Shown here one piece after another: positions 3,555 through 37,384 of a stretch of 39,232 bases of DNA (positions are counted from its first letter, which is position 1; each line of letters opens with the position of its first letter). Both the position numbers and the translations under genes were made by a program. Source of the stretch: a virus; the IMG/VR virus record IMGVR_UViG_3300030329_003329, positions 1 through 39,232 of that record; one strand, written 5' to 3'. The notes under the pieces are model-generated. The model was given only the letters and a program-made list of their open reading frames with translations. It had not been told where the DNA came from and searched no databases.

Positions 3555-3791
3555 GTGTTTAAAAGAATATACAACGCATTATGGGGATTCAGAGGTAAAG
3601 TATTTCATATCTATTACTCTATGTATAGACAAAATAAAGCTTTACACATGAGACTTAACGAAGTAGAAGTACTACTAATTGCTATCGACAGTAAAATTGA
3701 TAAGTTAGTAGAGCCTCCACTAAAAGTTAATTTATGTAATACACCGAAAAGAAAACCCGGTAGACCAAAAAAAAGAAAGGTAAGTAAATGA
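3555..3791 (+). CDS. Small protein with an AT-hook-like C-terminus, 78 aa
   Basis: This frame starts with GTG at 3555, after AAAGGAA about 11 bases upstream, and its stop overlaps the ParB-like start in an ATGA arrangement. Residues 1-25 are basic and aromatic, 30-52 form a probable helix or coiled coil, and residues 65-76 are a dense basic patch KRKPGRPKKRK. The GRP core flanked by basic residues is the hallmark of an AT-hook that binds the minor groove of AT-rich DNA. Coupling to the ParB-like gene suggests that the two act together on DNA. An overlapping frame at 3451-3651 lacks these features and was not chosen. Confidence 0.65.
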   Translation: MFKRIYNALWGFRGKVFHIYYSMYRQNKALHMRLNEVEVLLIAIDSKIDKLVEPPLKVNLCNTPKRKPGRPKKRKVSK

Positions 3792-4483
3792 GTGGCATGA
3801 AACATAGAGTTATGGAAGCCTCTAAGATAAAAAAACTTCCAACTCAGCCTCCTATGAGATGTGAGGATAACACTAAGTTAAGAAGCTTGACAGAGAATAT
3901 AGCCAAAAACGGCCTATTAAATCCTCTCTTAATAGCTTCTGATAATGTCCTTATTGATGGACACAGACGCTTAGCTGCTTTAACCTCTTTAGGAGTTAAA
4001 AAAGTAGATGTAATTCAGCATAATAGTAATAGTGCGGAGCTAAAAGACGCATATTTTGTTGCTGCAGCTAAAGATACTATGCAAATTAATAGCAATCAGT
4101 ATTTATGGCGTTATATGAATAATGCATCAATACCAAATTATGTCTTAGGCAGGATTAAATTACTCGAAGAATGGATGGGTAAGAAATACTGTAAAGACGT
4201 AGCATTCCCACTTATATTAGCAAGGAAGCATTCCCCAAGTACATATCAATTTATCATGGGGATGTACAGAGCAGTAACTGAACTTAGTGGTGTTTTAAAG
4301 ATGAGAAAATTCTTTCAATATTGTTTTAATGTTGAAACACCATTTAACATCAAAGCTGCAATTGCTAAGGACATTAGTCCTGAATACTTAATTAGATGCG
4401 TTACTACAATGCGACCAATTCAAGTTGATTTCTCTACTGTTAATGAAGAGGCAGGCCAGCCTATTGACAGTAAAAACCCTTAA
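3788..4483 (+). CDS. ParB/Srx-fold nuclease-like protein
   Basis: The N-terminal 80 residues match the ParB N-terminal domain: a stretch ending IAKNGLLNPLLIA (residues 38-50) followed by the phosphate-binding DGHRRLAAL (about 57-65), the equivalent of the GERRxRA box that binds CTP in true ParB proteins. The remaining 150 residues are helical and could bind DNA. There is no ParA partner nearby, which argues against a normal partition system. A ParB-related protein is a named member of the plasmid PRTRC gene set, whose other members are a ubiquitin-like protein, an E2-like protein, a JAB peptidase and a ThiF protein. All four follow directly here. The start is set by the ATGA overlap with the upstream gene. 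Confidence 0.85.
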   Translation: MSGMKHRVMEASKIKKLPTQPPMRCEDNTKLRSLTENIAKNGLLNPLLIASDNVLIDGHRRLAALTSLGVKKVDVIQHNSNSAELKDAYFVAAAKDTMQINSNQYLWRYMNNASIPNYVLGRIKLLEEWMGKKYCKDVAFPLILARKHSPSTYQFIMGMYRAVTELSGVLKMRKFFQYCFNVETPFNIKAAIAKDISPEYLIRCVTTMRPIQVDFSTVNEEAGQPIDSKNP

Positions 4484-4498
4484 TTAAGGAGAACATAA

Positions 4499-4729
4499 AT
4501 GGCAAATAGTAAACCAAATGTTACAGGATTCTTTCCTGGACATAACAACGGAAGAGCTACTGATATGAAAGCTGAATCAGTGGCTGATGTAGTTAAAGCA
4601 TTCGAGGTAAATGCCGCTTCAGGCAATTATACCTATTCCGTTAACTCTGAACAAGCAACAATAAACACCAAGTTACATGATGGTGATGTTGTTTCTATTA
4701 GTAAGAGTAAAAATAAGTCAGGTAAGTAG
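4499..4729 (+). CDS. Ubiquitin-like beta-grasp protein, 76 aa (PRTRC protein C / Prok_Ub type)
   Basis: AAGGAG is placed well before the ATG. The 76 residues end with a beta strand of the ThiS/ubiquitin type: INTKLHDGDVVSISK (residues 55-69), where the DGDxVxI turn is typical of the last strand of beta-grasp modifiers. The tail is KNKSGK, so the only C-terminal glycine is followed by one lysine instead of the usual exposed Gly-Gly. A peptidase could remove the last residue; alternatively the tail is not conjugated. The assignment rests on this motif, the size and the immediate neighbours: E2-like, JAMM peptidase and E1-like genes downstream. Prok_Ub and PRTRC protein C are the nearest named families; a profile comparison was not possible. 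Confidence 0.7.
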   Translation: MANSKPNVTGFFPGHNNGRATDMKAESVADVVKAFEVNAASGNYTYSVNSEQATINTKLHDGDVVSISKSKNKSGK

Positions 4730-4735
4730 CCTGAC
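4717..4735 (+). other. Hairpin across the stop codon of the ubiquitin-like gene
   Basis: GTCAGG (4717-4722) and CCTGAC (4730-4735) form a perfect 6-bp stem whose seven-base loop contains the TAG stop. It could slow ribosomes at the stop or protect the 3' end; it has no T-run. Confidence 0.4.
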
Positions 4736-4751
4736 TACGTTGGTGTAAAAT

Positions 4752-4801
4752 AGAGAGGTGCGCAAGGTATAGGAAAAATGCTAGCAATCCTCTCTTTTTT
4801 T
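4752..4801 (+). terminator. Long-loop terminator after the ubiquitin-like gene
   Basis: AGAGAGG (4752-4758) pairs with CCTCTCT (4789-4795), directly followed by an unbroken T-run ending at 4801. The stem plus U-tract is terminator-like, but the 30-base loop is much larger than usual and matches the closing-stem style of the elements upstream. It would separate the ubiquitin-like gene from the E2-like gene, allowing different expression levels. Confidence 0.55.
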
Positions 4802-4826
4802 CTTAATTCTAAAATAAAGGACAACA

Positions 4827-6503
4827 ATGTCACAGTTATTAAAAAAGTATAAAGCTCCAGACTTGGAGTTAATTTGTAGAGTAATAGAAGCAATGATTAT
4901 TCCTAAAGAAATGTTTCAGTGTTCAAGTGCTGTTAAAACATGGTATAAGGATATGCTAAATGATGGTTATTTAGTTACCTTTAGTAAGAATGATGTTCCT
5001 ATTGAATGGTATGACGATGATAGGGGAAATGAATGTCATCGTTTATTTACAGGTCATCAAACTAAAGAGTGGGGTACTCAAACAGCATATTATTGGGAAA
5101 GAACAGTTAAAGACAACGAATATATTCACAATAAAATGATTAAAACAGTTAAGGCATGGGAAGAAATAGAGCAACAAGCAAAGTTATTTTTAAAACATAA
5201 TAAATGTATTGTGGTAGCAAATTTCAACACTGATACAACTTACAATCCTCATTACGATATTCTTTTTAACCATTTTAATTTTAGCAGAGAAAATATCCCT
5301 CTTTATAATGATTATCTTGAATCTCGCAGTCATTATTATAAAATAAGTGATTTAAAACCTCAATTCGTTTTTAATCAAGCATTAATATCAGATGATTATG
5401 ATTATTATAGGAATCTAACTTTATTTGCTTATTTTAAACCTCAATCAGTACAATTCTCTACTTTTATAAATGGTAAAAATGTTAAAGATAAAGTAAATGT
5501 AGGCGATTATTGGGTTAATTACCGAACTGATACAGCTTATCAAGAATCTGAAGATTTCTTAGGTAATAAAGTTTTAAAATACGCTAATCATCCGCATATA
5601 TCTGATGGAAGAGTATGTGCTGGTGGTTGGTCTCAAGCTTGGACTGAATGTCGTAATTTAGGTAGAATCTTTGGTTGGCATAGTGGATTTGCTTTATTTC
5701 TTCGAAGATATAATAGCAGGTCGCCTTACAATCAGCCAGCTCTATTTAAAACGAATTTTAAGTTAAAAGTAGAAGATGAAACTTTTGAGTATCAATTTGA
5801 ATCTCCAGCTGAAGCAATCAAGGTAATGCAATTAAGAAGCAGGCTTACAGGTAGTAATAATATTGAAAAGCTTATTCCTCATTTAAAGAGGTGTAAACAT
5901 AACAATTTATCTGCAATAAGATACTTTGAATGTTTAAATCTTTTAAAAAGAATAAGCGGAGTATGTACTCGAGAATTACGACATGCTAATTCAAGTAAAC
6001 TTAAGCACGTTAAAGAAATTTTTAATGATACAGCTACATTCTTAAAAGACACTTATAAAGCTAGAGATTATGAACTATATAGCTTAGAGTTAGACGAAAA
6101 GGATTATTTCGGTAAAGCTGTTCATAATTTACACAAAGATGCATTTAGGTTTAAAGAACAGTATAATAATGGAAAGAAAACTCTTAATCCAACTTTAAAA
6201 CAAATATTGTTAGCTGCTAGAGGTCATTACTCTGAAGATGAAAATCTTGCTAGAACAATAATGACTAATAACCAAGTACATATTAATACTTTTTACACAA
6301 GAATTGTTAATAGGTATAATAACTATCAGAATAGAATGTTTATTCACGCTAAAAGAAAGTATTTAAAAGCTGCTAAAGAGAATATTCAAGAACTTAGAGC
6401 TTTTGTTAATGCTTTAAAAGCTACTAAGAAAGATTCTAACTTTAAAGTTGTAACTCAGCTTTTTAATGATTTTGAAACTAAACTTGATGTGAAAGGACAA
6501 TAA
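4827..6503 (+). CDS. E2-like (ubiquitin-conjugating fold) protein, 558 aa
   Basis: A candidate conjugating enzyme for the small modifier upstream. Residues 255-264 read HPHISDGRVC followed by AGGWSQAW. This reproduces the E2 core, where an HPN-type motif precedes the catalytic cysteine (here Cys264) and a tryptophan follows; HPH variants occur in bacterial and phage E2-like families. The segment before it (about 195-254) has the alternating hydrophobic pattern of the E2 sheet. E2 domains are about 150 residues, so the 190 residues before and about 250 after are extra: the C-terminal part is basic and helical with many Lys, Asn and Tyr. The gene starts after AAAGGACAACA and is directly followed by the JAMM gene with no gap. 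Activity is inferred. In PRTRC sets this place is held by protein B. Confidence 0.75.
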   Translation: MSQLLKKYKAPDLELICRVIEAMIIPKEMFQCSSAVKTWYKDMLNDGYLVTFSKNDVPIEWYDDDRGNECHRLFTGHQTKEWGTQTAYYWERTVKDNEYIHNKMIKTVKAWEEIEQQAKLFLKHNKCIVVANFNTDTTYNPHYDILFNHFNFSRENIPLYNDYLESRSHYYKISDLKPQFVFNQALISDDYDYYRNLTLFAYFKPQSVQFSTFINGKNVKDKVNVGDYWVNYRTDTAYQESEDFLGNKVLKYANHPHISDGRVCAGGWSQAWTECRNLGRIFGWHSGFALFLRRYNSRSPYNQPALFKTNFKLKVEDETFEYQFESPAEAIKVMQLRSRLTGSNNIEKLIPHLKRCKHNNLSAIRYFECLNLLKRISGVCTRELRHANSSKLKHVKEIFNDTATFLKDTYKARDYELYSLELDEKDYFGKAVHNLHKDAFRFKEQYNNGKKTLNPTLKQILLAARGHYSEDENLARTIMTNNQVHINTFYTRIVNRYNNYQNRMFIHAKRKYLKAAKENIQELRAFVNALKATKKDSNFKVVTQLFNDFETKLDVKGQ

Positions 6504-7475
6504 ATGAAACTAACAATAGCTAAAGACATGGTTAAGAAGATAAAGTATCTTTTAAATGAGTTTCCTGGCAACGAATGGTCAGGACCAGCTTTCTATGAAG
6601 TTAAATTTGGTAAGAATGGATTTCCTACTCACTATGAGTTGAAATACTTTAAACCAATTGATTTAGGAGGTAAAGTAGACACTGAATTTTCAGGAGAATT
6701 ACTTAATAGCTTTATACCTAAGATATGGGTTGAAAGACCTGAAACTAAGCAGTATGCTTGTGGTTTAATTCACTCTCACCATAGTATGGGTGCTTACTTT
6801 AGTAAGACAGATACTGACCAAATGGAAGAGAGTATTAAAGACTCTAAAGCAGGTGAAGATACTTTTTATCCAAGCCTTGTCGTGTCATACGCAAAAGGAA
6901 AAGAATATCACTTTGGAATAGCTTACAAAGATAATTATGGTTACATAAGTATTGTTGAAGCTTTGAAAAAGAATATTAAAGAGCTTGGTAAGAAATCTGA
7001 ACACCCTAAAGAATGGGTTGATGAGGTTAATTATATCGTTGAAGAAGATAAAAAGAAAAAGCGTAAAAAGTTTGCAAATCATACATATACTAGAAATAGC
7101 AAAGCAATAACTACTTATCCAAATCAACGTACTATCTTCCAAGATATGCATTATTCTATTCCTAATATGCCTAAAACTTTCATGGAAAAACTACCAAGAG
7201 AGTTAAATGATAATGACAAAGAGTTAATATCAGCAAACGTTACAAACTTAGGTAACTACATCAAAGTGTTTAATGAAAAGATGTGGGGTTTAGAAGAAGT
7301 TGCATTAGTTACTATGGAAGAAATAATTGACAAAGCTGAGACTAAGGGAATAGTGACTGAAGACCAAGCTGTAGAGCTAACTAATGATTTATACGATATT
7401 GATTTCGAAGAGGAAATAAGTGTTCAAGAAATAGATACATGGAATAAATCATTTGGAGGTAACATTGCTAGATAG
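6504..7475 (+). CDS. JAB/MPN (JAMM) metallopeptidase-like protein, 323 aa
   Basis: The zinc-peptidase signature is complete. Glu24 in an NEWSG context is the catalytic glutamate, and HSHHSMGAYFSKTD at residues 90-103 gives His90, His92, Ser100 and Asp103 in the exact HxH-x7-SxxD spacing. JAMM enzymes remove ubiquitin-like modifiers or trim their C-termini. The catalytic domain fills about residues 1-150. After it comes a lysine-rich linker (about 170-190) and a 130-residue acidic helical tail of unknown role. The gene abuts the E2-like stop and overlaps the E1-like gene by 11 bases, so the three are one translational unit. A role in processing the 76-aa modifier or recycling conjugates follows from family knowledge and context. 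It corresponds to protein A in PRTRC sets. Confidence 0.88.
   Translation: MKLTIAKDMVKKIKYLLNEFPGNEWSGPAFYEVKFGKNGFPTHYELKYFKPIDLGGKVDTEFSGELLNSFIPKIWVERPETKQYACGLIHSHHSMGAYFSKTDTDQMEESIKDSKAGEDTFYPSLVVSYAKGKEYHFGIAYKDNYGYISIVEALKKNIKELGKKSEHPKEWVDEVNYIVEEDKKKKRKKFANHTYTRNSKAITTYPNQRTIFQDMHYSIPNMPKTFMEKLPRELNDNDKELISANVTNLGNYIKVFNEKMWGLEEVALVTMEEIIDKAETKGIVTEDQAVELTNDLYDIDFEEEISVQEIDTWNKSFGGNIAR
7455..7460 (+). promoter_or_regulatory. Ribosome-binding site that fixes a TTG start
   Basis: GGAGGT lies inside the end of the JAMM gene, four bases before the TTG at 7465. An earlier in-frame TTG at 7453 sits directly in front of this sequence and cannot be served by it, so 7465 is the likely start of the E1-like gene. 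Confidence 0.7.
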
Positions 7476-8151
7476 ATTCAGTAGAAACAAAGACCTGATA
7501 CCTCAGAAAAAGTTAAAAAGCTTAACTGTTGTCGGTGCAGGTGGCATTGGTAGTGCTATATCAATTCAAACAGCTATTATGGGATGGAAAGAAGTTGATT
7601 TTTGGGATGATGATAAGATAGAGATTCATAACTTAAGTACAACTACTTATCCTATGGATAGTCTTGGTCAATACAAGGCTGATATTGCTGTAAGTATGCA
7701 GGGATTATTTGGTTCCGCAAATCAACATGCAGAAGCAACCCCTATGATAGCAAGGATAAATGATACAACAGAATCAAGGTTGATTAAGCCAAATGTCATA
7801 ATATGTACAGATAATATGCAAAGCAGGTTAGATACTTATCAATTATGGAGAGAAAAGGAAAATAGAAACGCCTTTATTGATGTTCGCATGGGTGCTTTAA
7901 GCATTAATGTAGCAACAGTTACTCGAAAGAATGATGAGTATTTAGCAAAAGACTGGTATGCAGATGAAGATGTAGAAGATGAGCCGTGTACTATGAAACA
8001 CACTATCTTTACAGCTCAATATGCTGCCAGTTTAGGTATGAAACAGCTCTTTTTAGTATTGAAAGGGATGCCGTTTTATGCTTATATTACACGCAATCTA
8101 GCAACTGAATTTACTGAAGTTCAGCACAGCAGATTGATTCTCAAACCATAA
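7465..8151 (+). CDS. E1/ThiF-like adenylating enzyme, 228 aa
   Basis: A Rossmann-type adenylation domain like ThiF, MoeB and E1. Visible features: the nucleotide loop GAGGIGS (24-30), an acidic triplet DDDKIEIHNL (48-57) matching the usual DxDxVxxSNL region, Lys71 after a conserved-type glycine, and ICTDN (113-117) matching the aspartate that binds ATP-magnesium. The arginine finger usually following the SNL motif is not obvious (STTTYP instead). Cys175 in DEPCTMKHT is a candidate thioester cysteine. In ubiquitin-type pathways the enzyme adenylates the C-terminal glycine of the modifier and passes it to the E2. The TTG start is set by GGAGGT and overlaps the JAMM gene by 11 bases. The PRTRC ThiF protein is the closest contextual relative. 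Confidence 0.85.
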   Translation: MLDRFSRNKDLIPQKKLKSLTVVGAGGIGSAISIQTAIMGWKEVDFWDDDKIEIHNLSTTTYPMDSLGQYKADIAVSMQGLFGSANQHAEATPMIARINDTTESRLIKPNVIICTDNMQSRLDTYQLWREKENRNAFIDVRMGALSINVATVTRKNDEYLAKDWYADEDVEDEPCTMKHTIFTAQYAASLGMKQLFLVLKGMPFYAYITRNLATEFTEVQHSRLILKP

Positions 8152-8213: not shown

Positions 8214-9107
8214 ATGAATATTCAAGTTCAAACAGTAAATAATGATTGGCAGTCTTTGCCTGGTGGATTAACATGGTTTTTCGTTGGTCAACCTAAGACA
8301 GGTAAAACCACTGCTGCATCAAAGTGGAGTGAGAAAGGAACAGATGGTGTAATAGTTTTAGATGCTGACTTAGGAGCTGACTTTGTTGAAGGAGCTAATG
8401 TTGTACCAATTACATCATTAAATATTCCTTACGAAACAGAGGAAGTTAACGGAGAGTTAGCAATTAAAACAAAAACAGTAAAAGGTAAGAAAATACCTAT
8501 TCCAGTAAAACCTGAAGCACGTGGTTATTACTACAGAAGTGGTAAATTGAAAGGCAAACCGATGCCTGTTTATTCACTAGCAGAGGCTTTATCATGGTTA
8601 CAAAAAGAATGGGATAAATTACCTTACGATACAATCGTTTTAGATACAGTTGGAGAGGTTAATGGCTGGATTGAAGACATTGTGAAAAAGGAAATGAACA
8701 TAACTGCAATGGGTCAGGGTGAATGGGGTTCCGATTGGGGAGCAGCTCGTCGTAAGAATGTCGATATAATTAAGAGAATGCAAGCTTTTGTTAAAAAAGT
8801 AGGCGCTAACTTAATATTAATTGGACATTCTAAAATGACAGCTGTTACTGATGGAAGAGCTCAATTATCCCCGGAGTTGCCTTCAGGGTTATCAAGAGCG
8901 ATAACTGCTAAGGCTGATGTTATAGGTTACATCACTGGCGACAAAGCCAATGGTGGGTACACTATATCGTTTAAAAGCTACGATGAGCGTATGATAGGGT
9001 CAAGGCTAGAGCCTTTGGCTCAAAAGGAGCTGCCACTAGATTTCAATGCGGTGGTAGATGAACTAAAAAACCATAACAAACAAGGAGACGCACCATGGAA
9101 GGAATAA
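8214..9107 (+). CDS. RecA-like ATPase (AAA_24 / Sak4-type recombinase candidate)
   Basis: A single RecA-fold ATPase domain fills the protein (297 aa). Walker A is GQPKTGKTT at 25-33; Walker B is TIVLDTVGE around Asp144; a sensor-type strand ILIGHSKMT follows near residue 205. Phage Sak4-like proteins of this size pair homologous single strands and act with an SSB. Here the next gene, overlapping by 13 bases, encodes a candidate ssDNA-binding protein, which supports that reading. A middle insertion rich in lysine and proline (85-118) is unusual. It starts after AAAGGGAATAA. Replication or recombination of the phage genome is the likely role; the exact subfamily needs a profile search. Confidence 0.8.
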   Translation: MNIQVQTVNNDWQSLPGGLTWFFVGQPKTGKTTAASKWSEKGTDGVIVLDADLGADFVEGANVVPITSLNIPYETEEVNGELAIKTKTVKGKKIPIPVKPEARGYYYRSGKLKGKPMPVYSLAEALSWLQKEWDKLPYDTIVLDTVGEVNGWIEDIVKKEMNITAMGQGEWGSDWGAARRKNVDIIKRMQAFVKKVGANLILIGHSKMTAVTDGRAQLSPELPSGLSRAITAKADVIGYITGDKANGGYTISFKSYDERMIGSRLEPLAQKELPLDFNAVVDELKNHNKQGDAPWKE

Positions 9108-9730
9108 TCCGACCAAAAGACGATTCACCAGCAGTTGGTGGAAATAGCTTTCTTGGCTTTCAAGAAGCATCAATTATAGAAATCAAAGATAGAACATCTG
9201 AATTTAGTTCTTGGGCAGATGTTTACATTGATATACATTTAGCAACACCTACTAGTAAGTACTCTACTAGCCTTAGAATTAAAGGTTCTTACAAAAGAGA
9301 TACACAAGGTAATGTTGTTGCTGATAGTAAACTAGTAAAAGACATTTACGCATTGTTTGACGCTATAGGTTATAGTGGCGGTATTAATGCTAAAGGTGAA
9401 TTTTGCGATGCTTCTGGTAAAAATGTTAACATTGAGAATGCATTATCTAGCTACGCTTCTGGGAAGCCTGCAGATGATAGCGGACATAATTTTAATTTGT
9501 ATGTTTATGTCTATAAAGAGCTTAACAAGAAAACCAGAAAAGCTTACACTGTTGTGCTTAACTATGTACAACCAAATGATGACACCGGTAGAGAGAAATT
9601 AGAAAGTAGAGTAGACTTTCTTAAGAAAGGAAACTATATCAACGAAGTTTCTCTTGATGAAATTAACAATATGAACGGAGCAGCAAATAACGTTACAGTA
9701 GATAACGTTCTTGATTCCGTCGTACTGTGA
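9095..9730 (+). CDS. Probable ssDNA-binding protein, 211 aa
   Basis: I do not recognise a signature with certainty. The protein starts within the end of the ATPase gene after CAAGGAGACGCACC and ends in a GTGA overlap with the primase-helicase, so all three are coupled. Residues 18-75 and 140-170 are strand-rich with alternating polar and hydrophobic residues, fitting an OB-like fold, and the C-terminal 40 residues are acidic and Asn-rich and end in a hydrophobic tip (DNVLDSVVL), reminiscent of SSB tails. Proteins of this size next to Sak4-like ATPases commonly bind single-stranded DNA. The call rests on context and secondary-structure impression, not on a motif. Confidence 0.5.
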   Translation: MEGIIRPKDDSPAVGGNSFLGFQEASIIEIKDRTSEFSSWADVYIDIHLATPTSKYSTSLRIKGSYKRDTQGNVVADSKLVKDIYALFDAIGYSGGINAKGEFCDASGKNVNIENALSSYASGKPADDSGHNFNLYVYVYKELNKKTRKAYTVVLNYVQPNDDTGREKLESRVDFLKKGNYINEVSLDEINNMNGAANNVTVDNVLDSVVL

Positions 9731-11646
9731 TAAACGGTGACTTTGTAGAACTTGCATTAGGGACGCCCGCTGGTCGTGGCGTCTCTTGCAAGAAGTCAGA
9801 GTTAAGTAAATATATTATACAATCACATAAAGAAGGCTTTCCTCTTGGTAAGTCTTTATATCGAAGTATGTATCTTTATCCTCCTAAAGCTGTGGGAGAA
9901 AAGAAATTTAAAACTAAAGAATATGTAGGTGAACGAGCAATTGATTGGATTGTTTTAGATGTTGACAAAGGTAGAAATACTGATGAATACACTTTAGACC
10001 AAGTTCATGAGCTAATCGAACAACTGCTTTCTTACGATTTAAATCCACAACATAACTTTAATATATATTTTAGTGGCACTGGTTATAATATACATGTACC
10101 AAATTCTGTTTTTGGATTTGAGGCATCACCTCGATTACCTATTGAGGTTAAAGATACTGTATGTAAATTGTTTCAAGGTATAGATACGACTATCTATGGC
10201 CATGTTTCTTTATATAGAGTACCTTGGACTCAAAATCAGAAAAGTGGTTTATATAAGGTTCCTATTAAGTATGATGATTTTGTTGGTATGAATATATCCG
10301 ATATTCATCAATTAGCTAAGAGTCCTATCGCTAAAGATGGGAAATTAGTAAATTCAAGTATCATTACTACACAAGGAACTGAGCAGCTTAAAAATAAAAT
10401 CGTCAAATCTCATTCAATTACCCGAATGCAAATCAATAGAAATGTTAGAGAGAATACTGCTGAAGCAACTTGTCTTCAAAAGATATATAACATGGGTCCT
10501 ACTCAGGGCAATCGTCATGTTATTATTTTAAGATTAGCAAGTCATTACAAGCGTAAAGGTATACCATTACAAGCTTGTAAAGCAGCTTTGCTTGATTGGA
10601 ACGCAGGTTCTCTTAATGATAGTGAGATAGTAAGAAATGTTGAAAGTGTTTATAATAGAAATTATCAATATGGTTGTAACGATGCTTTATTGAAAGAGCA
10701 TTGTTCACCTCTTTGTAAATATTATAAAAACAAAGACTATTTAAGTACTATTAGCAATTCTGATGATATGCAAGCCGAATTGGAACGTTATGTTACTACT
10801 AACTTTAAAGGTAAAAAGCTAGAAATCGGAGCCTTACTAGGCTTAGAAGATGACCTAACTGTTTACCCCGGTGAGTTAATAACAATATACGGACCAACTG
10901 GCTGTAATAAAACTACTTTAATACAAAATTTAGTATTAGGGTATTGCGCGGGTAATAATAAGATAATTAAGCAGCTTCAAATTGACACTTTATTTTTATC
11001 ATTAGAGCTTAGCTTACATGAAATGCACAAAAGAAACCTCTCTATAGTGAACGACTGTTCACCAAGAGATGTTGAAAGAAGTATTAGGAATAATGTACGA
11101 GCTATGTATGATATTTCTAAGGAGTATATTGACCATATTAAGATAAGTACGCTATCCCCCTCATTAGAGAAGATAGAAGAAGATGTTAAGGAATTTAAAC
11201 CTAAACTTCTAGTAATTGATTATCTTGATTTGGTTGATGCAGGTAGCAGAGGCGAATACGAAAGGTTAAATAAAATCTGTCACGGACTGAGAAACTTGGC
11301 AACAAATCAGAACATTATAATAGTTCAATTAGCTCAAGTTGCACGTGGTGCATTAAAAGACAGAGATGGGAAAGAACAAAATTTAACCGTAAACTCAGGT
11401 AAAGGCTCAGGTGCTATAGAGAATGCATCTTCAAAGGTTATTAGTATTGAAGGTAGGCAAGGCGAGAAAACTCGTACTGTTACTATGCATAAAAACTCTA
11501 ATGGCAACTTGTTTCAAGTAAAACTAAAGCTTGATAATTTAAGACTTAGGAGAGACTTTGAAGCGGAAGAAGCCGAAAAACAAATCATTAAACCAGAAGG
11601 AGACAGCAATGGCGACAACGAAAGACTTAATTTCCAATATAATTGA
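9727..11646 (+). CDS. AEP-type primase fused to DnaB-type helicase, 639 aa
   Basis: The N-terminal third carries archaeo-eukaryotic primase motifs: catalytic LDVD (77-80), SGTGYNIHV (116-124, the small-residue/His nucleotide motif) and an RVPWTQNQKSG segment (164-174). A PriCT-like helical region follows (about 245-315), then a cysteine cluster CNDALLKEHCSPLC (317-330) that could hold zinc or an iron-sulfur cluster. The C-terminal half is a RecA-fold helicase of the DnaB family: Walker A GPTGCNKTT (389-397), Walker B KLLVIDYLDLV (493-503) and IIVQLAQVARG (531-541). One chain would thus prime and unwind at the fork. It starts with GTG in a GTGA overlap with the preceding gene. Confidence 0.88.
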   Translation: MINGDFVELALGTPAGRGVSCKKSELSKYIIQSHKEGFPLGKSLYRSMYLYPPKAVGEKKFKTKEYVGERAIDWIVLDVDKGRNTDEYTLDQVHELIEQLLSYDLNPQHNFNIYFSGTGYNIHVPNSVFGFEASPRLPIEVKDTVCKLFQGIDTTIYGHVSLYRVPWTQNQKSGLYKVPIKYDDFVGMNISDIHQLAKSPIAKDGKLVNSSIITTQGTEQLKNKIVKSHSITRMQINRNVRENTAEATCLQKIYNMGPTQGNRHVIILRLASHYKRKGIPLQACKAALLDWNAGSLNDSEIVRNVESVYNRNYQYGCNDALLKEHCSPLCKYYKNKDYLSTISNSDDMQAELERYVTTNFKGKKLEIGALLGLEDDLTVYPGELITIYGPTGCNKTTLIQNLVLGYCAGNNKIIKQLQIDTLFLSLELSLHEMHKRNLSIVNDCSPRDVERSIRNNVRAMYDISKEYIDHIKISTLSPSLEKIEEDVKEFKPKLLVIDYLDLVDAGSRGEYERLNKICHGLRNLATNQNIIIVQLAQVARGALKDRDGKEQNLTVNSGKGSGAIENASSKVISIEGRQGEKTRTVTMHKNSNGNLFQVKLKLDNLRLRRDFEAEEAEKQIIKPEGDSNGDNERLNFQYN

Positions 11647-12548: not shown

Positions 12549-13001
12549 ATGGGTCGATTACAGTATTGGCAGGATAAACTAGAAAGTCGCTTGAGAAAAC
12601 TTCATGGCACACACTGGAAGATAGTGTTTAAAAAGCTAATGAGGAAAGCGACTACGTTGAAAGCGTCATTAAAGAAGCGTAGTAGAGAAGCTGATGTTCA
12701 TTGTGAAATTAGCGTTCATCAGATTCGTGAAATGATTGTCGACGTATATGGAAAAGCGTGTAAATACTGTAAAACAAAAATCTTACATAAGAATATGGCT
12801 TGTGACCATATATCTCCTTTGAGCAGTGGCGGAGAAAGTACTGTAGATAACTTGCAATTTATTTGCAACAGATGCAATACTAGAAAAGGACCACTCACTA
12901 ATGATGAATATAAACGTGTGTTGAAATGGTTAAATCGCCAGCCAGAGCACGTAAATAAGTATGTTCTTAGAAAGTTATCAAAAGGAGATTTATTCCGATG
13001 A
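12549..13001 (+). CDS. HNH endonuclease, 150 aa
   Basis: The C-terminal half is a zinc-bound HNH fold: CKYC (71-74), catalytic DHISPLSSGG (86-95), the central Asn in DNLQ (100-103) and CNRCN (106-110) followed by KGPLTNDEY. The first 60 residues are strongly basic and probably contact DNA. A free-standing HNH gene in this place may be a homing enzyme or take part in phage DNA processing; no intron is seen near it. It overlaps the next gene by four bases. Confidence 0.88.
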   Translation: MGRLQYWQDKLESRLRKLHGTHWKIVFKKLMRKATTLKASLKKRSREADVHCEISVHQIREMIVDVYGKACKYCKTKILHKNMACDHISPLSSGGESTVDNLQFICNRCNTRKGPLTNDEYKRVLKWLNRQPEHVNKYVLRKLSKGDLFR

Positions 13002-13820: not shown

Positions 13821-14201
13821 ATGGATTACGGCACTGCTACCCATCGACTAAAAAAAAGATTATTATTTGATTTTGCAATAAAACTTGATATGCAGTGGTG
13901 CTTTAGATGTGGTGCCGAAATCAAAACTTTAAGAGATTTCTCTCTTGACCATAAAATACCTTGGTTACATAATAAAGAACCTAAAAAATTATTTTGGGAC
14001 TTAGATAATATAGCTTTCTCACATTTATCTTGCAATTCAAGAGACAGTAGAGGAGGACCTATGCAGAAGAGGAAACCATGCCCCACATTAGCAGCTTATG
14101 ATAGAGGATGTCGTTGCGGACCTTGCCGTAAACTCAAATCAGACAAATGCAAGGAATATTACATTAAGAGAAAACTTAAAAATACCAATAACAATATTTA
14201 A
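13821..14201 (+). CDS. HNH endonuclease with C-terminal CRC module, 126 aa
   Basis: The HNH core is visible: CFRC (27-30), LDHKIPW (42-48), DLDNIAF (60-66) and HLSCNSRDSRG (68-78). After the core comes a second cysteine module, YDRGCRCGPCRKLKSDKCKEYY (split here as GCRCGPC at 96-102 and Cys110), a short Arg-rich tail found on several phage HNH proteins and likely to bind zinc or DNA. It differs from the HNH protein at 12549 in spacing and tail, so the two are not recent copies. The ribosome-binding site is weak. Confidence 0.83.
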   Translation: MDYGTATHRLKKRLLFDFAIKLDMQWCFRCGAEIKTLRDFSLDHKIPWLHNKEPKKLFWDLDNIAFSHLSCNSRDSRGGPMQKRKPCPTLAAYDRGCRCGPCRKLKSDKCKEYYIKRKLKNTNNNI

Positions 14202-16625: not shown

Positions 16626-18062
16626 CTATTCCTCAGCAAGATATTCATCATACATGCTAGGTTCGTCATCTCCTATTAATTTCGGAATTATAATACTAGC
16701 AGCTCCTATAGCTGCACCTGCAGCACCACCTACTTTCAATCTCCTCGCTTTCTTCATGAAATTAGCTGCAGTAATGCCTTTTTTATATCTCTCTCTACCC
16801 TCTGATATTTTTTTAATATCTGATTTTATTTGAGGATATACACCTCCTGAATCTAACTTGCCTTCGGCAACGTTTTTATATCTACCTACAGTCTTACTGT
16901 CAAGCAATTGCTGGTTAGTTCTCCTAGTTCTAGGAATAATATCTTTTCCTCTAGTAGGACCGGTATAAGGCTCTTTATTCACATGCTCTTTTAAAGAAGA
17001 TATACTATACTCTTTAGATTCAACATAATTAATTACATGATTGCCTCTTGTCAATGTACTAATTGGTGTATCTCTTAAGTCAGTACCTATAAATCTAACT
17101 TTACCTCTATTCGCTGGGTCCCATTCAGTAGCAACACTATAACCACCCCAATCAAAGTTACTTTTTATATCAGGGCTAAAATGAAAATATAACTTGCCAT
17201 TCATAGTTTTAACATTGCCAACCCCGGGAACAGTCTTTGCTAAATCAGAAGCTTCTTTTAGATTCATATTGTTATCTTTTAAAGTAGCTAATAAGTGATA
17301 TGTCCTTGGTGTGAATTGAGCACCTCTCATTACTCCACTTATACTATGGTCAAGCCATTTTAAATACTTTAAATTAGGCGTATCTAAGTTTAATTTTTTT
17401 TCTTTAAATAGCCTTCCTACACCAGGTAACTCTGAAGCTCCATAAACATGAGTTCTTAACGCATATTGCGCTATATCTTTACTCCCAGCACTTCTAATAA
17501 AGTCTTTAGCGTCTCCCATTTTATGCCAAGGGTTTACTTTCCCTTTATTATATACTCGGTTTCTATAATTTTCTATTAGTCTAGACTTAGAGCTATCAAA
17601 TATCTCAGTATTAGCAGAATCGTTAAGTATTTTATAATGTCTTTCTTTTACAATTCTATTCTTGATACTTTTAGCTCTTTTTATTGCATTCTCACCAGAC
17701 TGTCCAAACTCACCTCTTTTATAAGCATCGTCAACAGACTTTAACTCATCGTCCATATCAAGAATTGTATCGTTAAGAAATGAGCTAACACCTGTCCCTT
17801 TATAAGTAGCAAGTTCTATTGGATTTAAAAGAGTTTTAGCTGAGCGTCTGATAGCCTTATTAAGCTCCTCTTTGTATAAAGCTTGTTTATCGGCACCGGG
17901 TCTATAGAATCCTTCTAGAAAGTTAGAGGCTTGGTCTGCTAACAATCTCCTTGCACCACCTTGAGGAAGCTGACCTAATGTCCCTTTATATGCTCCATAG
18001 CTACCAAGTCCAATTAAACCAGCACCTATTTCATCTCCTCTTTCTTCTAGAAAATTAGCCAT
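16626..18062 (-). CDS. Hypothetical virion protein, 478 aa
   Basis: The ATG at 18062 shares a base with the stop of the giant-protein gene (TAATG) and has GGGGGTGG just upstream; an upstream GTG at 18071 is less likely. Residues about 10-25 (GLIGLGSYGAY) and 445-465 (GGAAGAAIGAASIII) are glycine- and alanine-rich hydrophobic stretches, as in phage internal proteins that enter membranes on ejection. The rest is basic and mixed. No family is recognised; position directly after the giant gene suggests an ejected or internal virion partner. Confidence 0.75.
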   Translation of the reverse strand: MANFLEERGDEIGAGLIGLGSYGAYKGTLGQLPQGGARRLLADQASNFLEGFYRPGADKQALYKEELNKAIRRSAKTLLNPIELATYKGTGVSSFLNDTILDMDDELKSVDDAYKRGEFGQSGENAIKRAKSIKNRIVKERHYKILNDSANTEIFDSSKSRLIENYRNRVYNKGKVNPWHKMGDAKDFIRSAGSKDIAQYALRTHVYGASELPGVGRLFKEKKLNLDTPNLKYLKWLDHSISGVMRGAQFTPRTYHLLATLKDNNMNLKEASDLAKTVPGVGNVKTMNGKLYFHFSPDIKSNFDWGGYSVATEWDPANRGKVRFIGTDLRDTPISTLTRGNHVINYVESKEYSISSLKEHVNKEPYTGPTRGKDIIPRTRRTNQQLLDSKTVGRYKNVAEGKLDSGGVYPQIKSDIKKISEGRERYKKGITAANFMKKARRLKVGGAAGAAIGAASIIIPKLIGDDEPSMYDEYLAEE

Positions 18063-21000
18063 TATTTCCACCCCCTAGAATAAGGTAATTCATCTGTAGT
18101 AGTAAGAACTTTATGTAGCTTCATTTGAGGTATTCCTGTAACAGCATCTACTGTTCTTATAGGATTGTTTATAATATTATTATCGTTAAAAGGAGAAACA
18201 TCTCTAAGCATTCTACCAAATGGAGCCATAGTGTAGATAGTGTAATCTAAGAAACTACTCCAGTCATCGTTTACCCAACCTTGGAATGTGGAAAGGGGTA
18301 GCCTAGCGATTGGAGGAGTAATCATCTGTAAAGGTGCTACTCCCTTTGGCCACGCTCCAAAGAATGCCCTATCTCTTTCTCTTTCATCTCCAAACATCCA
18401 ATCAGCAGTATCCTGCAACCAGTTGTATGGAGCTGGTAAACCTTGGTCAAATAGTGAGTACATAAATACATTAGCAAGAGCAATGCTCATCATATCCCAC
18501 TGGATTAATCTCTTGAATCTTTCAAACTCTGGAGTACCCGGTCTATATCCGTATATAGCCGCTTTATCTATAATGTCTCCTCTAAACCTAACAGAGTTCC
18601 ACGACCATAATTGGAAACGAGTCATTACTTTACCAAGTGATGTCCTAGCAAATGCTGGTCTGAAAGGAGCAGAATACATAAACTGAGTAGCTTTTACACC
18701 CTTCTTAGCTAATTCAATTAAATAAGGATGGTCCATTTGTAAGGTACCATTGAATTTCTGATGAGCTTCTACTAAATGAGCCATAAAAGCGTCTCTACGA
18801 AGCATACGTTCAGAGACTCTCATAAACCAGCCAGCTTTATTAAATACTGAATCACTTATATTGTATTTAGAAGCTATCTCTCTAACTTTACCATCTTTTA
18901 AAGAAGGGTTTTCTTTAATAGCATCAGCCGCTTCATTGAAGAACTTTTTAAAATTACCCTTTTGCAGTTCAGGATTTAACCCAAACTCATAAGACATTAA
19001 CTCAGGTATTATACCGTGAGATTCTACCCACTTTTCTACATCAGCTCTAGAGTTCCACTCATTACCTAATCTGTCTTTACCCGGGTTTATATTAGCTTTT
19101 AACCATGCTACATCTCTACCTCTAAGCCAGTTTCTCATTCCTGTCGACTGTATAGTATGAACCTGCCCACCATATATGTTGTTGAACATACTCTTAGGGT
19201 GAGCTAGTAATGTAGCCATTTGATATTTAGCTTCCAGGTTAGACCAGTGTCTTATTTGCTGTAAATCTACATCTTGTAATTCACTTGGAAGACCTTCTTT
19301 GTCTTTAATTAAACCAAGCTTTCTTCCTATAGATGTGACTCTATTAGCTACCACATTATCAGCCCATTTAGCGTACAAAGTTCCGTTTAAATTCATTTCT
19401 GGATTCTTTAGTACTTGTTCTGGAATAACACTAGGATAACCCATCGCATCTTGAGCATAAAGCTTTATATAATCAACCCATGCATCAGTTAATTTATCTC
19501 CCCATTTCTTTCTATGCTGTAAGTCGAACTCATTTAACGATTGCCTAGAGATTATTTGAGAAAGTTGACGATAATAAGTATTCGTCATATTCTTTATATA
19601 AGCATCATACACAGGCCTATCAGGAGACCAACCTTCAATATGAGACTCCCTGCTAAACATATTGCCTGTTCTTAGATTCTTATCATAAAAATCAAAATGC
19701 TCACCTCTCTTATTTTGAGCCATCTCTTTCATAGCTCCATCGAATATCTTCCAATCACTTATATCAGCTTCTATCCATTCTCCTGACATAGATTTGTGGT
19801 GCAACTGAAGCTTTTGTATCTGCTTTGCTTTATCTTTTTCACTAAGTTCGCCATTTTCCATTACTTTCTTAACAGCTTTTTGTAATGACTGACTTGCTAG
19901 TTTTTGGTCAAACATCATGTGAGGCCAGTAATGTTCGGGATTTAAAAAGCCTGTATCACGTGTTCTGAATCTTCGCAAGTTGCTAATCATCTTACTATCT
20001 TTCAACTTACTACTTTCAGCAGTCTGTATCATTAAAGAGTATGCTACTTTCCTAAGACCGTCCATTCCGTACTTCATTGGAATATCTACACCTTTTCTGT
20101 AATCATTAGTAACGTCTCTTACAAAACTTTGCACATCTATAATAGGCATATCTTCTTGGGGGACTTTATCATTTCTATGATGCCAACCGCGTATATACCT
20201 CTCTAAGGTACTTCTCCACCCACCTTCACCTTGTATCCATTTCTGCATTTTTAAGGCTTGATTTGTGTATACATCATTTATTCTATCAATAACCTCACGA
20301 CCAGTAACTACTTTTTGAACTGTCTTTCCATCTTTATCAGCAACAGATATAGTATACTGCTTATTTTCAAGCTCTTTAGCATTAAAGTCTTTTGCGGCTT
20401 TCTTGTATAAATCCTTATATGTATTAATAAGTATAGAAGACTCTGTTTTGCTCATTTCACCACGTTCTACTCTGTCTCTAAGAACTTTCTCCATTCCTAA
20501 TTCTCGTTCTCTAATAGCTAGTTCGTGCAATTCTCTGTGCTCTGCCAATTGCTCTATAAATAAAAGCTCCTTAGAAAGCTCATCTTGAGCTCTTTGCGAA
20601 GCGTAAACTGAGCGTTCATTACCAAACTCTATCCAAGCTTGCTGTTTACCTATTTGCTGAGTTGGTTTAGCCATAGTGCCTGTATGCATAGAACCATCAG
20701 CCATCATGAACTGTCCTTTTTCTCTAAGCAAATCAAAGTTGTGCTTCATCATCTCTTTATCAACAGCTTTAGGGAACAAGTAATAGTACATTTTTTTTAT
20801 AACAGGAGCATCTCTCATATCTTTACCCCAACGACCATTTCTAAGCATGCCAAACATTCTATTTAGTGCTTTATAGTCTTCAAAGTTCATCGCGTTTAAA
20901 TCTTTATTTAAAACACCACGTGTAAGCTCGTTTAATCTTTCTCCGACGCTATCGTGATAATGAGTTAAGTGCTCGTTAAGTGAAGCAACTATTTTCTCTT

Positions 21001-24000
21001 GTTCAGGTGTAATCTTACCATCTTTAATTAGGCCAACAAGCCCGCTTTTAGTAGAAGGCTCTTGTATGTCTACAACATCTTCTTTTTCTAATATTTCATT
21101 TCGTTTCTCACCAGTAACTTCTTTTACATCTTTAAGAACCTTACTTAGTTCCTCTTTACTAGCGACGCGAGATGTCGCATCAAACAGTTTAGAGTACTCT
21201 CTAAAAAACTCTTTAATCGAAGAGTCACTAATCTCTCTACTGCTTAATCCTACTTTAGACATTCTAGTAGCAAGTGCCTCTCTTTTAAGTACATCAAGTT
21301 CAGCTGTTTGTTCTTCTGTAAGCTTTCTGTTTTTACCAAGCTCATTAATTCTGTTTAAATCCCCCCTTGAGAAAGAAGATAATAGCAAGTGGTCTAACAG
21401 TTTATTTTCAAACTTGTTTAAGTTACGTTCTTTTCTAAACTTTTTAATTCCAGCATCTATCTTAGCCTGGTCAGCTAATGCAGAAATCTTTCCATCTTCA
21501 GTAGCAGTATGTCCTAGTTTCTTTCTAGAAGCTTCAAGCATTCTTTGTTCTGCCATTTCTTTAGCAGTAAAGCCTTCCTCTTGCCTAATCTCAGCGTTTC
21601 GTCTATTATACCCCTGCGTATATGCTGTTTTTTTAATAAACTCAGCAAACTCATGTAATAAGGCAAATCTTTTAGAACTAACATTTTCAGCATGCTTTCT
21701 GATTATTTTTAAGCTAACCATATCAGTCATGTCATTAACTAAAAAGTCCTCGGCTTGTTTGACTAACTTTTCCATGTGTTGCATACGGTCCATGTAGCCA
21801 AAGTCTTGGATTTCTTTTACTGTCTTTTCTTTACGCCCAGTCTCTTGGTTAGTCTTCCATATATTCTTAGACACTGCTTTTTGCAAGGCAGGTGTATTTT
21901 CAACTAAAGCTTTCCAATCAACATCTTTCATCTTAGCTAATTCATTTCTACCGAACCAGTCCCACAATTGCTTAGAATATACGAATGCTATTGTATTATC
22001 TTTATCACTATTTAATTTTACAGGGAACCCCATTCTCTCCATTATCTTCGCTAATTCAGGAGCCTTAGCTGAGCTTTTCTCATAAGCTGAATATAAATCT
22101 TTAATAGCATTAAACTTCAACCTTCTAAAAGTATTATCACTCCAATCTACAGGCTGTAAGTATTCAGCTAATTTAGGTAAGAATGTATTTGTATTAACTT
22201 TGTCATTAAGGTCCTTAAAGTCCTTAAATTTACTTCCCCTAAGCTTTATCTCTTCAATGAAGAATCTCCTGTTAGCACCCCAATTACGCCCGTAATACGC
22301 AGAGTTAATACCCTTTATCTTTCCAAATGGAGAATCAACATGAGTCATCCAACTTGTTTTGCCGTTAAAGTAGTTTGTTATGTCACCAACATCTTTAAAC
22401 TTGGCACCACCTTTAGTTGTCATTTCTACTTCAAAAGCTGCTTTGAACATTTCATTTAAGAAAGAAGTTCTATTCAATCCGAGTTCATCAAGAGGGTCAG
22501 AACCTAGTGCAACAGTAGCTCTACCCATTTCTCTTAATAGCTCTTGACCTTCTGCATCTGTTCTAGGTTTAATTCTGAAAGTGTCTTTACCTATTTTATA
22601 TTCATGAGTAATAGGTTTACCACTTGGGTCAATCATAGCTGCGTATACCGAATTAATAACAGAACGATTAACAACAGCAGGTCCTAACAGCTGGCGACCT
22701 CTAGATGCGTTCTGGGAGATTTGTGGACGCCAATAAGGAGAATAATACCAAGCTTTGGATTTTAAATTCTTCTGCATAGTAGCATCGTTAACTTCACCAT
22801 CAACTTCTGATAAAGTTAAAGCTTCTCTATATGTTTTACCAGCGTTATCACCAAACTGGATTTCCATATCTTTGTTATCAGATACAGTTTCTTTATATTT
22901 CTTTTTCTGTGCTTTAGAAAGCTTTTCATATTTCAGAGGAGATATTACTTTATTGGTAGCAATATGCCTATAAGCGACAAATTCATTCCTGTTAGAGTCG
23001 TATAAATCTTTCCACTCTTTCTTCATCCCCCCACCGGAACCGTCTTTATTTCTACCACCAAAAAAGATAAACGCCTTATCTCCATCTAAGTCAGCTCCAC
23101 CAAGAGCTCTCATTACCCTCGGGTGGAACAATCCGCCATGTCCTTCTCTACCAGTGAACCCAGCAAATGTTAGGGCATGAGCACCTGATATAGAATCCAT
23201 AGGAACACGAGCACAAACAGCTCTCAGTACTTCGTCAGCTTCTGCTTGAACATTCTTATAGTCTCCTTTCTGATATTTTTCCCAAAACTCTCCAAGAGTC
23301 ATTTTACCCTTTGGAGCTAATGTAGTAAATATAGGTAGGTCTGCGTACACACTATCTAAAAAGAAATATCTGTCAGCATCTACTCCTTTATCTAGGAACT
23401 TTTTAGCCATCTCAGCATTAAAGTTTCCTTTTCCACTAGCAAGATAACTAGCAAGGTGTGCATCTAAAGGTCTCATCCTGACACTACCGCTATTATTTAT
23501 CTTTGGTCTAGCCAACATATTAACAACGAAATTACGAGTAGCCTGCATTCTGTAATCTCTTACATATTTATGCATCAATACAGGGATAGAAGAAGAGGAA
23601 CCTTCATCTGTAAGCTCACCAGCTATTCTTATTAATCTATCAACAGCAGAATTAAATTCTCTCAGCTCTTGAGTAAAATGAGCTTTATCTTCTTTTGTAA
23701 TTTCACCTTCAGCAACAGCCTCCTCAAGAAAAGAGTCGTTCATTCTTAACACGTGTTTATATATTAAGTGATTTAACTTTTCATAACCGGGCATTTTCAT
23801 TGCTTCTATAAGCTTCTCTAAGCCTATATTATTTAAATTTCTCTCTACTTCTTGCAATTTAAAATCAGTAGGATTTTTTATATAATCTTTAAGCACATTA
23901 TTAGCAGATTCTTCTCCTCTATATTCAGTACCCATAATAGTATCAAAGATGTCATCAATAACTCTCTGGGCTTTCTTCTGGAGCTTTACATCTCCAGTTG

Positions 24001-36389: not shown

Positions 36390-36390
36390 G

Positions 36391-36474
36391 CAGTAAGGGT
36401 AGGTCTCGAACCTACACGAGCTCTCGCTCATATCCTAAACAGGGATACGTGTCTGCCAATTCCACCACCTTACT
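36391..36474 (-). tRNA. tRNA with long variable arm; body leucine-like, anticodon reads GUU (Asn)
   Basis: A complete 84-base cloverleaf: 7-bp acceptor AGTAAGG/CCTTACT, D-arm TGGTGGAATTGGCAGACACG, which is the common tRNA-Leu form, anticodon stem TATCC/GGATA with seven-base loop CTGTTTA, a long variable arm GAGC/GCTC with four-base loop, and a T-arm GTAGG/CCTAC with loop TTCGAGA. Position 33 is T, so the anticodon is GTT, which reads asparagine codons. The discriminator is G, as in Asn and Ser tRNAs; leucine tRNAs use A. Base 37 is T, unusual. CCA is not encoded. The conflict between body and anticodon is described under findings. A one-base error in the loop would change the reading. Confidence 0.85.
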
Positions 36475-36562: not shown

Positions 36563-37384
36563 CTAAATAATTCCTTCAAGCTCTAATGCTCTAGCCATTC
36601 TATTAACTCCTACACCTGCTCCAAATCTTGGAAAGAAATCTAGGTTTAAGTAATCATCAAGCTCTCTTAATACTCTATCTTCGGTGAACTGCTTGTATAA
36701 TAAATTAGCATACTGGCCATCTGATATAGATAAGAAATTCTCATACATCTCATTAGCATCGCAACTTCTTTCAGCAGAACCAATAGTCTCTTGTCCATGC
36801 AAAATAACGTCTACTTTGTTATAGAGATTCTTATCTTTATCGTTTTGCTTCATATTCCAAAAAGGATGAGAACGTTGAGGGAAGTACTTTAAGAAAACAG
36901 CATTACCATAATCTTTATACATTCTTTCTTCATGTTCTGCTTCTAAATGTTGAACTCCATACTCTTCGCACATACTATCATAAGTTCTATGCGTTGAGCC
37001 TTGGAAACCTAAGAACTCTAAAAGTTCTTCTTCCATAGCAATTAAATCACCCATATTCCCCTTGCTTTCAAATTCGAACATTGGGAAGATTTTCTGATGA
37101 CGACCTTGAATTGGATTAGGTTCGTTTCTGTAGCTAGTAGATATACAAAAAACCCCTTCTACATCGGGATTCATAAGCATTTCATATTCAAGCCACATTT
37201 GTCCAGTTTGCGGGAGAGGATAGTTAATACCGTCAAAAACAAACTGACTTATTGTTTTAGGGTCCTCACAAGCAGCTAATATACTTAATCTACTTTGTGT
37301 TGGAACCTCAATAAAGTTCTTAGCATGTTTAAAGAACTTCTTCATCTTATCTACTGTTTTATGATATTCAAATGTTTCGTACAC
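36563..37384 (-). CDS. AsnRS-like class II synthetase catalytic core, 273 aa
   Basis: Class II motifs are clear. Motif 2 is TSYRNEPNPIQGRHQKIF (83-100) followed by MFEFES, with the arginine and glutamate that bind ATP and amino acid; motif 3 is GAGVGVNRM (255-263) close to the C-terminus. The stretch FPQRSHPFWNMKQND (168-182) and GQETIGSAERS (197-207) follow the AsnRS/AspRS order (FY-M then G-E-I-x-G-S-Q-R). The N-terminal OB-fold anticodon domain of real AsnRS is missing. Two readings exist: a minimal synthetase for the adjacent tRNA, or an asparagine synthetase of the archaeal AsnRS-derived type, which also lacks that domain. GTG start at 37384; it precedes the tRNA by 88 bases. Confidence 0.82.
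   Translation of the reverse strand: MYETFEYHKTVDKMKKFFKHAKNFIEVPTQSRLSILAACEDPKTISQFVFDGINYPLPQTGQMWLEYEMLMNPDVEGVFCISTSYRNEPNPIQGRHQKIFPMFEFESKGNMGDLIAMEEELLEFLGFQGSTHRTYDSMCEEYGVQHLEAEHEERMYKDYGNAVFLKYFPQRSHPFWNMKQNDKDKNLYNKVDVILHGQETIGSAERSCDANEMYENFLSISDGQYANLLYKQFTEDRVLRELDDYLNLDFFPRFGAGVGVNRMARALELEGII

Follow-up and report, generated by a model that had tools for sequence, protein, structure and literature searches.

The window analysed here (39,232 bases out of the 40,890-base virus record IMGVR_UViG_3300030329_003329 of IMG/VR) carries four adjacent genes at positions 4499-8151 which encode a small ubiquitin-like (Ubl) modifier, a protein resembling ubiquitin-conjugating (E2) enzymes, a JAMM metalloprotease and a protein resembling Ubl-activating (E1) enzymes (Table 1). 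Judging from their motifs, the four genes very probably form an autonomous phage cassette for ubiquitin-like conjugation and deconjugation. An earlier note on this DNA had described a gene for a ParB-like protein with a DGHRR motif, followed by genes for a 76-amino-acid β-grasp protein, a 558-amino-acid protein with an HPH-x6-C core, a protein with a full HxH-x7-SxxD JAMM site and a protein with a GAGGIGS adenylation domain. The five open reading frames were verified at the positions which the note had assigned to them, and each of these motifs is indeed present.

Table 1. Genes of the predicted conjugation cassette and of its surroundings in the window (aa, amino acids).
Feature	Position	Strand	Basis
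Predicted Ubl modifier precursor, 76 aa, C-terminus KSG followed by K	4499..4729	+	β-grasp model; ThiS/SAMP2 profile matches; S74-G75 invariant
Candidate E2-like conjugating enzyme, 558 aa	4827..6503	+	HPH(255-257)-x6-C264-x-G266; core ~205-295; long helical C-terminal region
JAMM/JAB metalloprotease, 323 aa, predicted modifier-processing and deconjugating	6504..7475	+	Prok-JAB; H90-S-H92-x7-S100-xx-D103
E1-like activating enzyme (predicted), 232 aa, single adenylation domain	7453..8151	+	ThiF; GAGGIGS; C179 in PCTMK
ParB-like protein, 231 aa, occasional upstream neighbour, non-core	3788..4483	+	ParB_N E=3.4e-6; DGHRR
Sak4-like single-stranded DNA annealing ATPase, conserved downstream neighbour	8214..9107	+	phrog_124 E=8.8e-23
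211-aa protein, conserved downstream neighbour	9095..9730	+	syntenic in relatives
Primase / DnaB-like helicase, conserved downstream neighbour	9727..11646	+	phrog_19 6.8e-24, DnaB_C 5e-15, PriCT_1 5e-6; syntenic

In a family-profile search the single modifier sequence retrieved ThiS only, with a weak score (E=0.059). A profile of the modifier compared with PDB sequences matched ThiS (E=7e-7) and SAMP2 (5e-5), and an AlphaFold2 (AF2) model calculated from 38 sequences (predicted local distance difference test, pLDDT, 82.6) displays a β-grasp fold with the order ββ-α-βββ. The best structural matches of this model (VIA) are SAMP1 (Z 8.4, root-mean-square deviation, rmsd, 1.9, 72 residues aligned) and MoaD (Z 8.2, rmsd 2.0, 65 residues aligned), in agreement with the fold given in the earlier note. 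Residues S74 and G75 are the sole invariant columns among 38 aligned relatives. An SG pair is found at the C-terminal end in all 62 unique modifiers, where it is followed by no further residue in 7 cases, by one residue in 38, by two or three in 11 and by a longer tail in 6. By the model, the modifier is thus a β-grasp protein with a conserved C-terminal glycine.

The Prok-JAB profile aligns to the 323-amino-acid protein with E=1.3e-4 and 22.3 bits, which is under the 25-bit cut-off, while a JAMM profile compared with PDB sequences gave nothing at E 0.1. All ligands of the JAMM site are present in the window protein. Among unique relatives, the motif E[WYF]SG is conserved in 107 of 107 and HxHx7SxxD in 105 of 107; the window protein possesses both. 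The protease is likely to have a job beyond maturation of the modifier, because loci with modifiers that already end at SG keep the JAMM gene. In one clade of loci (L097, L103, L109, L113, L136, L148, L160) a conserved gene of 144-145 codons (MMTVPQKKYF..RID..) lies between the JAMM and E1 genes; its product was inspected as a candidate E3 and no feature points to such a role.

The ThiF profile matches the 232-amino-acid protein well above its cut-off (E=5.6e-15, 55.6 bits vs 28.1). The gene has a TTG start and overlaps the JAB gene by ~20 nucleotides, and its start is uncertain. Among 103 relatives the GxGGxGS motif is present in 102 and a cysteine in C[TS] context in all, with C179 of the window protein being the invariant cysteine of PC[TS]xK. 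A C-T pair also occurs in the catalytic loops of canonical E1 enzymes and is comparable with the PC[TS]xK cysteine, and we propose C179 as the putative thioester-forming residue. When an E1 profile was compared with solved PDB chains, the closest were the SUMO E1 UBA2 and the NEDD8 E1 UBA3, and also MccB. The similarity of the modifier to ThiS, SAMP and MoaD and the matches of the E1-like protein to ThiF and MoeB models would also suit a sulfur carrier, in which the modifier acts as a ThiS/MoaD-like thiocarboxylate donor and the E1-like protein as its adenylyltransferase. We regard such a function as very unlikely: an E2-like protein with the invariant HPH..C and a JAMM protease are linked in every locus judged, no sulfurtransferase, thiamine or molybdopterin genes were noticed nearby, and the CxxC zinc pairs that are typical of ThiF and MoeB occur in none of the E1 relatives.

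The assignment of the 558-amino-acid protein rests on its motif and its predicted core. The HPH-x6-C motif is located at H255-P-H257-x6-C264. In 59 aligned relatives, which share 12-18% identity with the window protein, the only invariant residues are M1, H255, P256, H257, C264 and G266, and HPHx6-8CxG is present in 80 of 80 unique complete E2-like sequences. Canonical E2 enzymes carry HPN, then 7 residues and then the cysteine. The structural model is confident only at residues ~205-295 and 490-530. In its core (~90 pLDDT), four strands lead into the HPH-x6-C loop and are followed by two helices, an order like that of UBC domains. About half of the 50 best VIA rows are E2, UBC or RWD chains, aligned at ~158-301 with Z 3.5-5.0 and rmsd 3.8-7.9. 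On the basis of the model an E2 (UBC) fold is likely, though not proven. The profile search gave no relevant family for the protein, and neither Pfam nor NCBIfam nor PHROGs has a model of the E2-like family. Queried on its own, the E2-like protein has one close relative among viral contigs (90% identity), and a search of 50,697 phage records returned none; two members of the family likewise gave no tblastn match in the phage collection.

Conservation of the locus was examined by scans of viral contigs, using the best 80 of 134 E1 relatives and the best 80 of 232 JAMM relatives, and the order of genes was read with profiles built from eight loci. Removal of near-duplicates left 63 distinct viral loci, 26 of which have room upstream; in all 26 the cassette is complete and in the order Ubl-E2-JAMM-E1, a count that applies to loci picked through two of the four genes. 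The earlier note had named a conserved gene order as a test of its proposal, and the order is kept. Frequently the cassette reading frames overlap the preceding gene, as in translationally coupled operons, and in nearly all loci with room the Sak4-like protein, the 211-amino-acid protein and the primase-helicase are encoded downstream. Comparison with locus L001 (90-96% identical) gave dN/dS values of 0.18 for the modifier, 0.23 for the E2-like protein, 0.25 for the JAMM protease and 0.07 for the E1-like enzyme; with values of 0.07-0.25, all four genes appear to encode maintained proteins under purifying selection. The recurrence of gene order and motifs across distinct viral loci, together with the low dN/dS, is beyond chance. 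Across the relatives, conservation is confined essentially to the predicted catalytic residues.

The ParB-like gene is real but does not belong to this conserved unit: of 40 distinct loci, only 5 have it upstream and close to the Ubl gene, which rules it out as a core part of the cassette. The earlier note had considered the five genes to match the plasmid PRTRC set, and of its proposal the adjacency of modifier, activating, conjugating and removing genes on one strand in a replication region stands, whereas the inclusion of ParB does not. A PRTRC-like module for maintenance of plasmid or phage DNA, with ParB as an essential component, would agree with the ParB_N protein upstream in the window, and on plasmids PRTRC sets are encoded next to genes for partition (PMC4465626, PMC7466150). 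The NCBIfam models PRTRC_A (14.4 bits vs a cut-off of 101.8) and PRTRC_ThiF (26.7 vs 144.75) nevertheless remain far below their cut-offs, and the PRTRC_B, C, D, E and F and PRTRC ParB models are not among the matches of the window proteins. Since no PRTRC model reaches its cut-off and ParB is not linked, membership of the PRTRC set was ruled out, and we consider a module of this kind extremely improbable. The resemblance to the plasmid cassette is limited to the ThiF- and JAB-family proteins and, in this window, the ParB-like neighbour. In plasmids, tblastn of the window E1 gave no match, and a related E1 gave weak matches.

A tblastn search with the E1-like and JAMM proteins found matches in crAss-like phages and in Flavobacterium phages. 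Genes gp79-gp76 of the Bacteroides phage crAss001 form a comparable four-gene set with identical order and have the primase and Sak4 genes as neighbours; their annotations read hypothetical, hypothetical, metalloprotease and thiamine biosynthesis, respectively. The modifier-like gp79 contains KKIKSG followed by an extension of ~130 amino acids, gp78 shows H-S-H and C-x-G, and gp77 and gp76 are the JAMM protein and the E1, respectively. Differences to the window are the long extension after SG, the spacing of 15 residues between H.H and the cysteine (here 6-8) and the remainder of the E2-like protein. In the crAss-like proteins K-x-S-G closes the predicted modifier domain and precedes the long extension, as expected of a processed precursor, and in a profile comparison of the crAss modifier with the window family, K-x-S-G falls on K-x-S-G with weak scores. 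A comparable set is also found in Kolpuevirus, cr128_1 and Dulem virus 41, and in Flavobacterium phage Fpv1, there with a split JAMM reading frame. Between the two Fpv1 pieces (locus L015, 3605-3958 and 4953-5897) lies a gene on the opposite strand, possibly an intron or a homing element. The jumbo Xanthomonas phage PhiXhv-12 encodes a modifier-like protein ending in SGG, an 892-amino-acid protein with HPH..CLG and an E1. Both termini of this 892-amino-acid E2-like protein (L163, 3247-5925) carry cysteine-rich clusters that may be zinc-binding modules joined to an E2 core. Additionally, a contig of a Caldilineae bin (L161, 1810-4787) harbors genes for Ubl-like, E2-like (YPHPY...CLE), JAB and E1 proteins in the same order; the contig is short, and a cellular and a viral origin are both possible.

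Several observations weigh against assignment of these genes to a conjugation pathway. The modifier terminates in a single SG, unlike the common GG, and the E1-like protein lacks the length needed for the ubiquitin-fold domain that canonical E1 enzymes use in hand-over to the E2. The model of the 558-amino-acid protein is partly of low confidence (mean pLDDT 59), helical chains matching other parts of it tie with the E2 rows in Z, and Foldseek alone gave no E2 match. The E2-like proteins match no known E2 profile or sequence in Pfam, NCBIfam and PHROGs or, for the E2-like core, among PDB sequences. A profile-profile comparison with the E2-like proteins of crAss phages scores weakly (probability 7%, E 0.005), yet H.H and C.G align. 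The lack of an E2 profile match and the weak structural scores would fit another Cys/His enzyme or a scaffold, with conjugation proceeding independently of an E2 as with SAMP or Urm1. This we consider quite improbable, in view of the HPH-x6-8-C spacing, which is near the canonical HPN-x7-C, the four strands ahead of the motif and the recurrence of E2, UBC and RWD chains as the globular match over this region.

For a conjugation cassette, a reaction cycle can be proposed; all of its enzymatic steps are inferred from the motifs, and so are the direction of transfer, the targets and the timing from the gene set and its position. The JAMM protease would cut the modifier precursor after ..SG, upon which the E1-like enzyme would adenylate the C-terminal glycine with ATP and load the modifier on C179. 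The modifier may then move to C264 of the E2-like protein, with HPH playing the role of the eukaryotic HPN, and the E2-like protein would attach it to a target, probably by way of the long helical region at its C-terminus. This region may also select the targets, as an E3 candidate is neither conserved nor recognised. Finally, the JAMM protease could remove the modifier from targets and so reverse the mark.

The earlier note had suggested that the genes could tag host or phage proteins, counter host defence or aid the maintenance of phage DNA. In two groups of phages the cassette lies among replication genes, so that its most likely targets are proteins of the replication fork or of early host takeover; it probably acts in early infection or replication, and its position favours a role at the time of replication. 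A link to the bacterial sliding clamp was considered from two sequence motifs. Of 71 E2 clusters, 51 have C-terminal tails that conform to Q..[LMI](F or.[FL]) and look like a sliding-clamp-binding peptide; shuffling gives 2.8. All 51 are read in one and the same shifted frame from DNA that also encodes the beginning of the JAMM protein, in most cases its helical segment [DN]K[VY]xY[LF] (overlaps in L002-L158). Because this JAMM helix is conserved even where the genes do not overlap, as in this window, the tail motif is most simply explained as an overlap echo, and it was dropped as evidence, being a probable out-of-frame echo of the conserved helix. The second motif lies outside any overlap, in the linker that follows the JAMM domain, where 21 of 62 distinct JAMM proteins have Q-x-x-[LMI]-F (QRTIF in the window, residues 208-212); local shuffling predicts 0.9, with a maximum of 6 in 2,000, and the 62 linkers are related by descent, so that the 21 are not a tally of independent events. 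Three crAss-like JAMM proteins have QGELPF, QEELPF or QSTLDF. The linker motif supports, but does not show, a predicted contact with the host clamp. That much of the double-stranded DNA phage world, including crAss-like gut phages, runs a Ubl cycle at the replication fork with recruitment to the bacterial sliding clamp is a far-reaching proposal which, on these motifs, we consider unlikely.

The same chemistry could alternatively serve counter-defence, with the cassette tagging or stripping host immune proteins (for example of Bil, Bub or CBASS) or depleting or replacing a host modifier. Bacterial Ubl systems oppose phages, as reported for Bil and for Cap2/Cap3 of CBASS (PMC11354881, PMC10097602, PMC13373217), and phage E1, E2 and JAMM proteins could compete with them. 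We find this possible but rather unlikely, as the cassette resides in the replication block of marine-type and crAss-like phages and not in a variable anti-defence island, and is complete in every distinct locus that can be judged, although these loci were chosen by two of its genes.

Further genes of the record deserve mention. The 211-amino-acid protein had no family match in profile searches and is perhaps a single-stranded DNA-binding protein, considering its position. Two small CxxC...H proteins resembling HNH-type endonucleases are encoded after the replication genes (12549-13001 and 13821-14201, plus strand), the first of which is syntenic in relatives. The record may be partial, since no exact terminal repeat of more than 15 bases was found in it. 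No PolA-type DNA polymerase was found in this possibly partial record, other polymerase families lying outside the search. A 3040-amino-acid protein (18062-27184, minus strand), for which Pfam and PHROG gave no match, includes GADLDGDKAFIFFG, a sequence that resembles the DxDGD catalytic motif of RNA polymerases; the protein is a candidate giant virion RNA polymerase. A tRNA-Asn gene (36390-36474, minus strand) adjoins the gene of a 273-amino-acid protein similar to class II aminoacyl-tRNA synthetases (36563-37384, minus strand; tRNA-synt_2 (D/K/N) E=6e-16, phrog_29758 4e-89), which is shorter than a full asparaginyl-tRNA synthetase. The two may be an asparagine-charging pair of the phage, or the protein may be an AsnA-like enzyme.

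Among described systems, the bacterial ISG15-like BilABCD system comprises a Ubl (BilA), an E2 (BilB), a JAMM protease (BilC) and an E1 (BilD) (PMC11354881); these are the functions predicted for the phage cassette, whose gene order corresponds to the order of naming. BilA has two Ub-like domains, BilD has an inactive and an active adenylation domain, and BilB has a catalytic His151 downstream of Cys138 in a CEHH motif (PMC11354881), whereas the phage-carried cassette has one grasp domain (76 amino acids), one adenylation domain (232 amino acids) and an E2-like protein with HPH upstream of the cysteine and no CEHH. The type 6d operons described in bacteria by Iyer et al. 2006 are likewise Ubl-E2-JAMM-E1 operons, with an E2 that lacks the upstream histidine and has a conserved histidine after the cysteine, an extra α-helical gene and a JAB-N domain (PMC1779556). 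In the phage E2-like protein the upstream HPH is invariant and no invariant histidine follows the cysteine, and the extra gene is lacking. Phages lambda and T1 encode a Ubl/JAB pair (TAPI and TAPK), but in a tail module without E1 or E2 (PMC1779556), whereas here a full set is found by Sak4 and primase-helicase genes. The cassette can be described as a phage-carried variant among prokaryotic Ubl conjugation operons that is set apart from Bil and type 6d, the operon types compared, by their descriptions; bacterial ubiquitination-like (Bub) operons are a further group, named in PMC13373217. In the open-access literature, subscription papers and preprints being outside the search, no paper was found that ties crAss-like phages to ThiF or describes such a cassette.

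If the E2 assignment is correct, the E2-like family would form a new branch of the E2 superfamily, and a phage Ubl cycle located at the fork, if true, would be the viral equivalent of the ubiquitination or SUMOylation of PCNA. The occurrence of gp79-gp76 in crAss001, a cultivated phage, makes the idea directly testable. Many phages probably attach a protein tag of their own to something during infection. Bacterial Ubl conjugation is known mainly as an anti-phage defence, and a phage-borne cassette would reverse this picture, with phages themselves using a Ubl mark.

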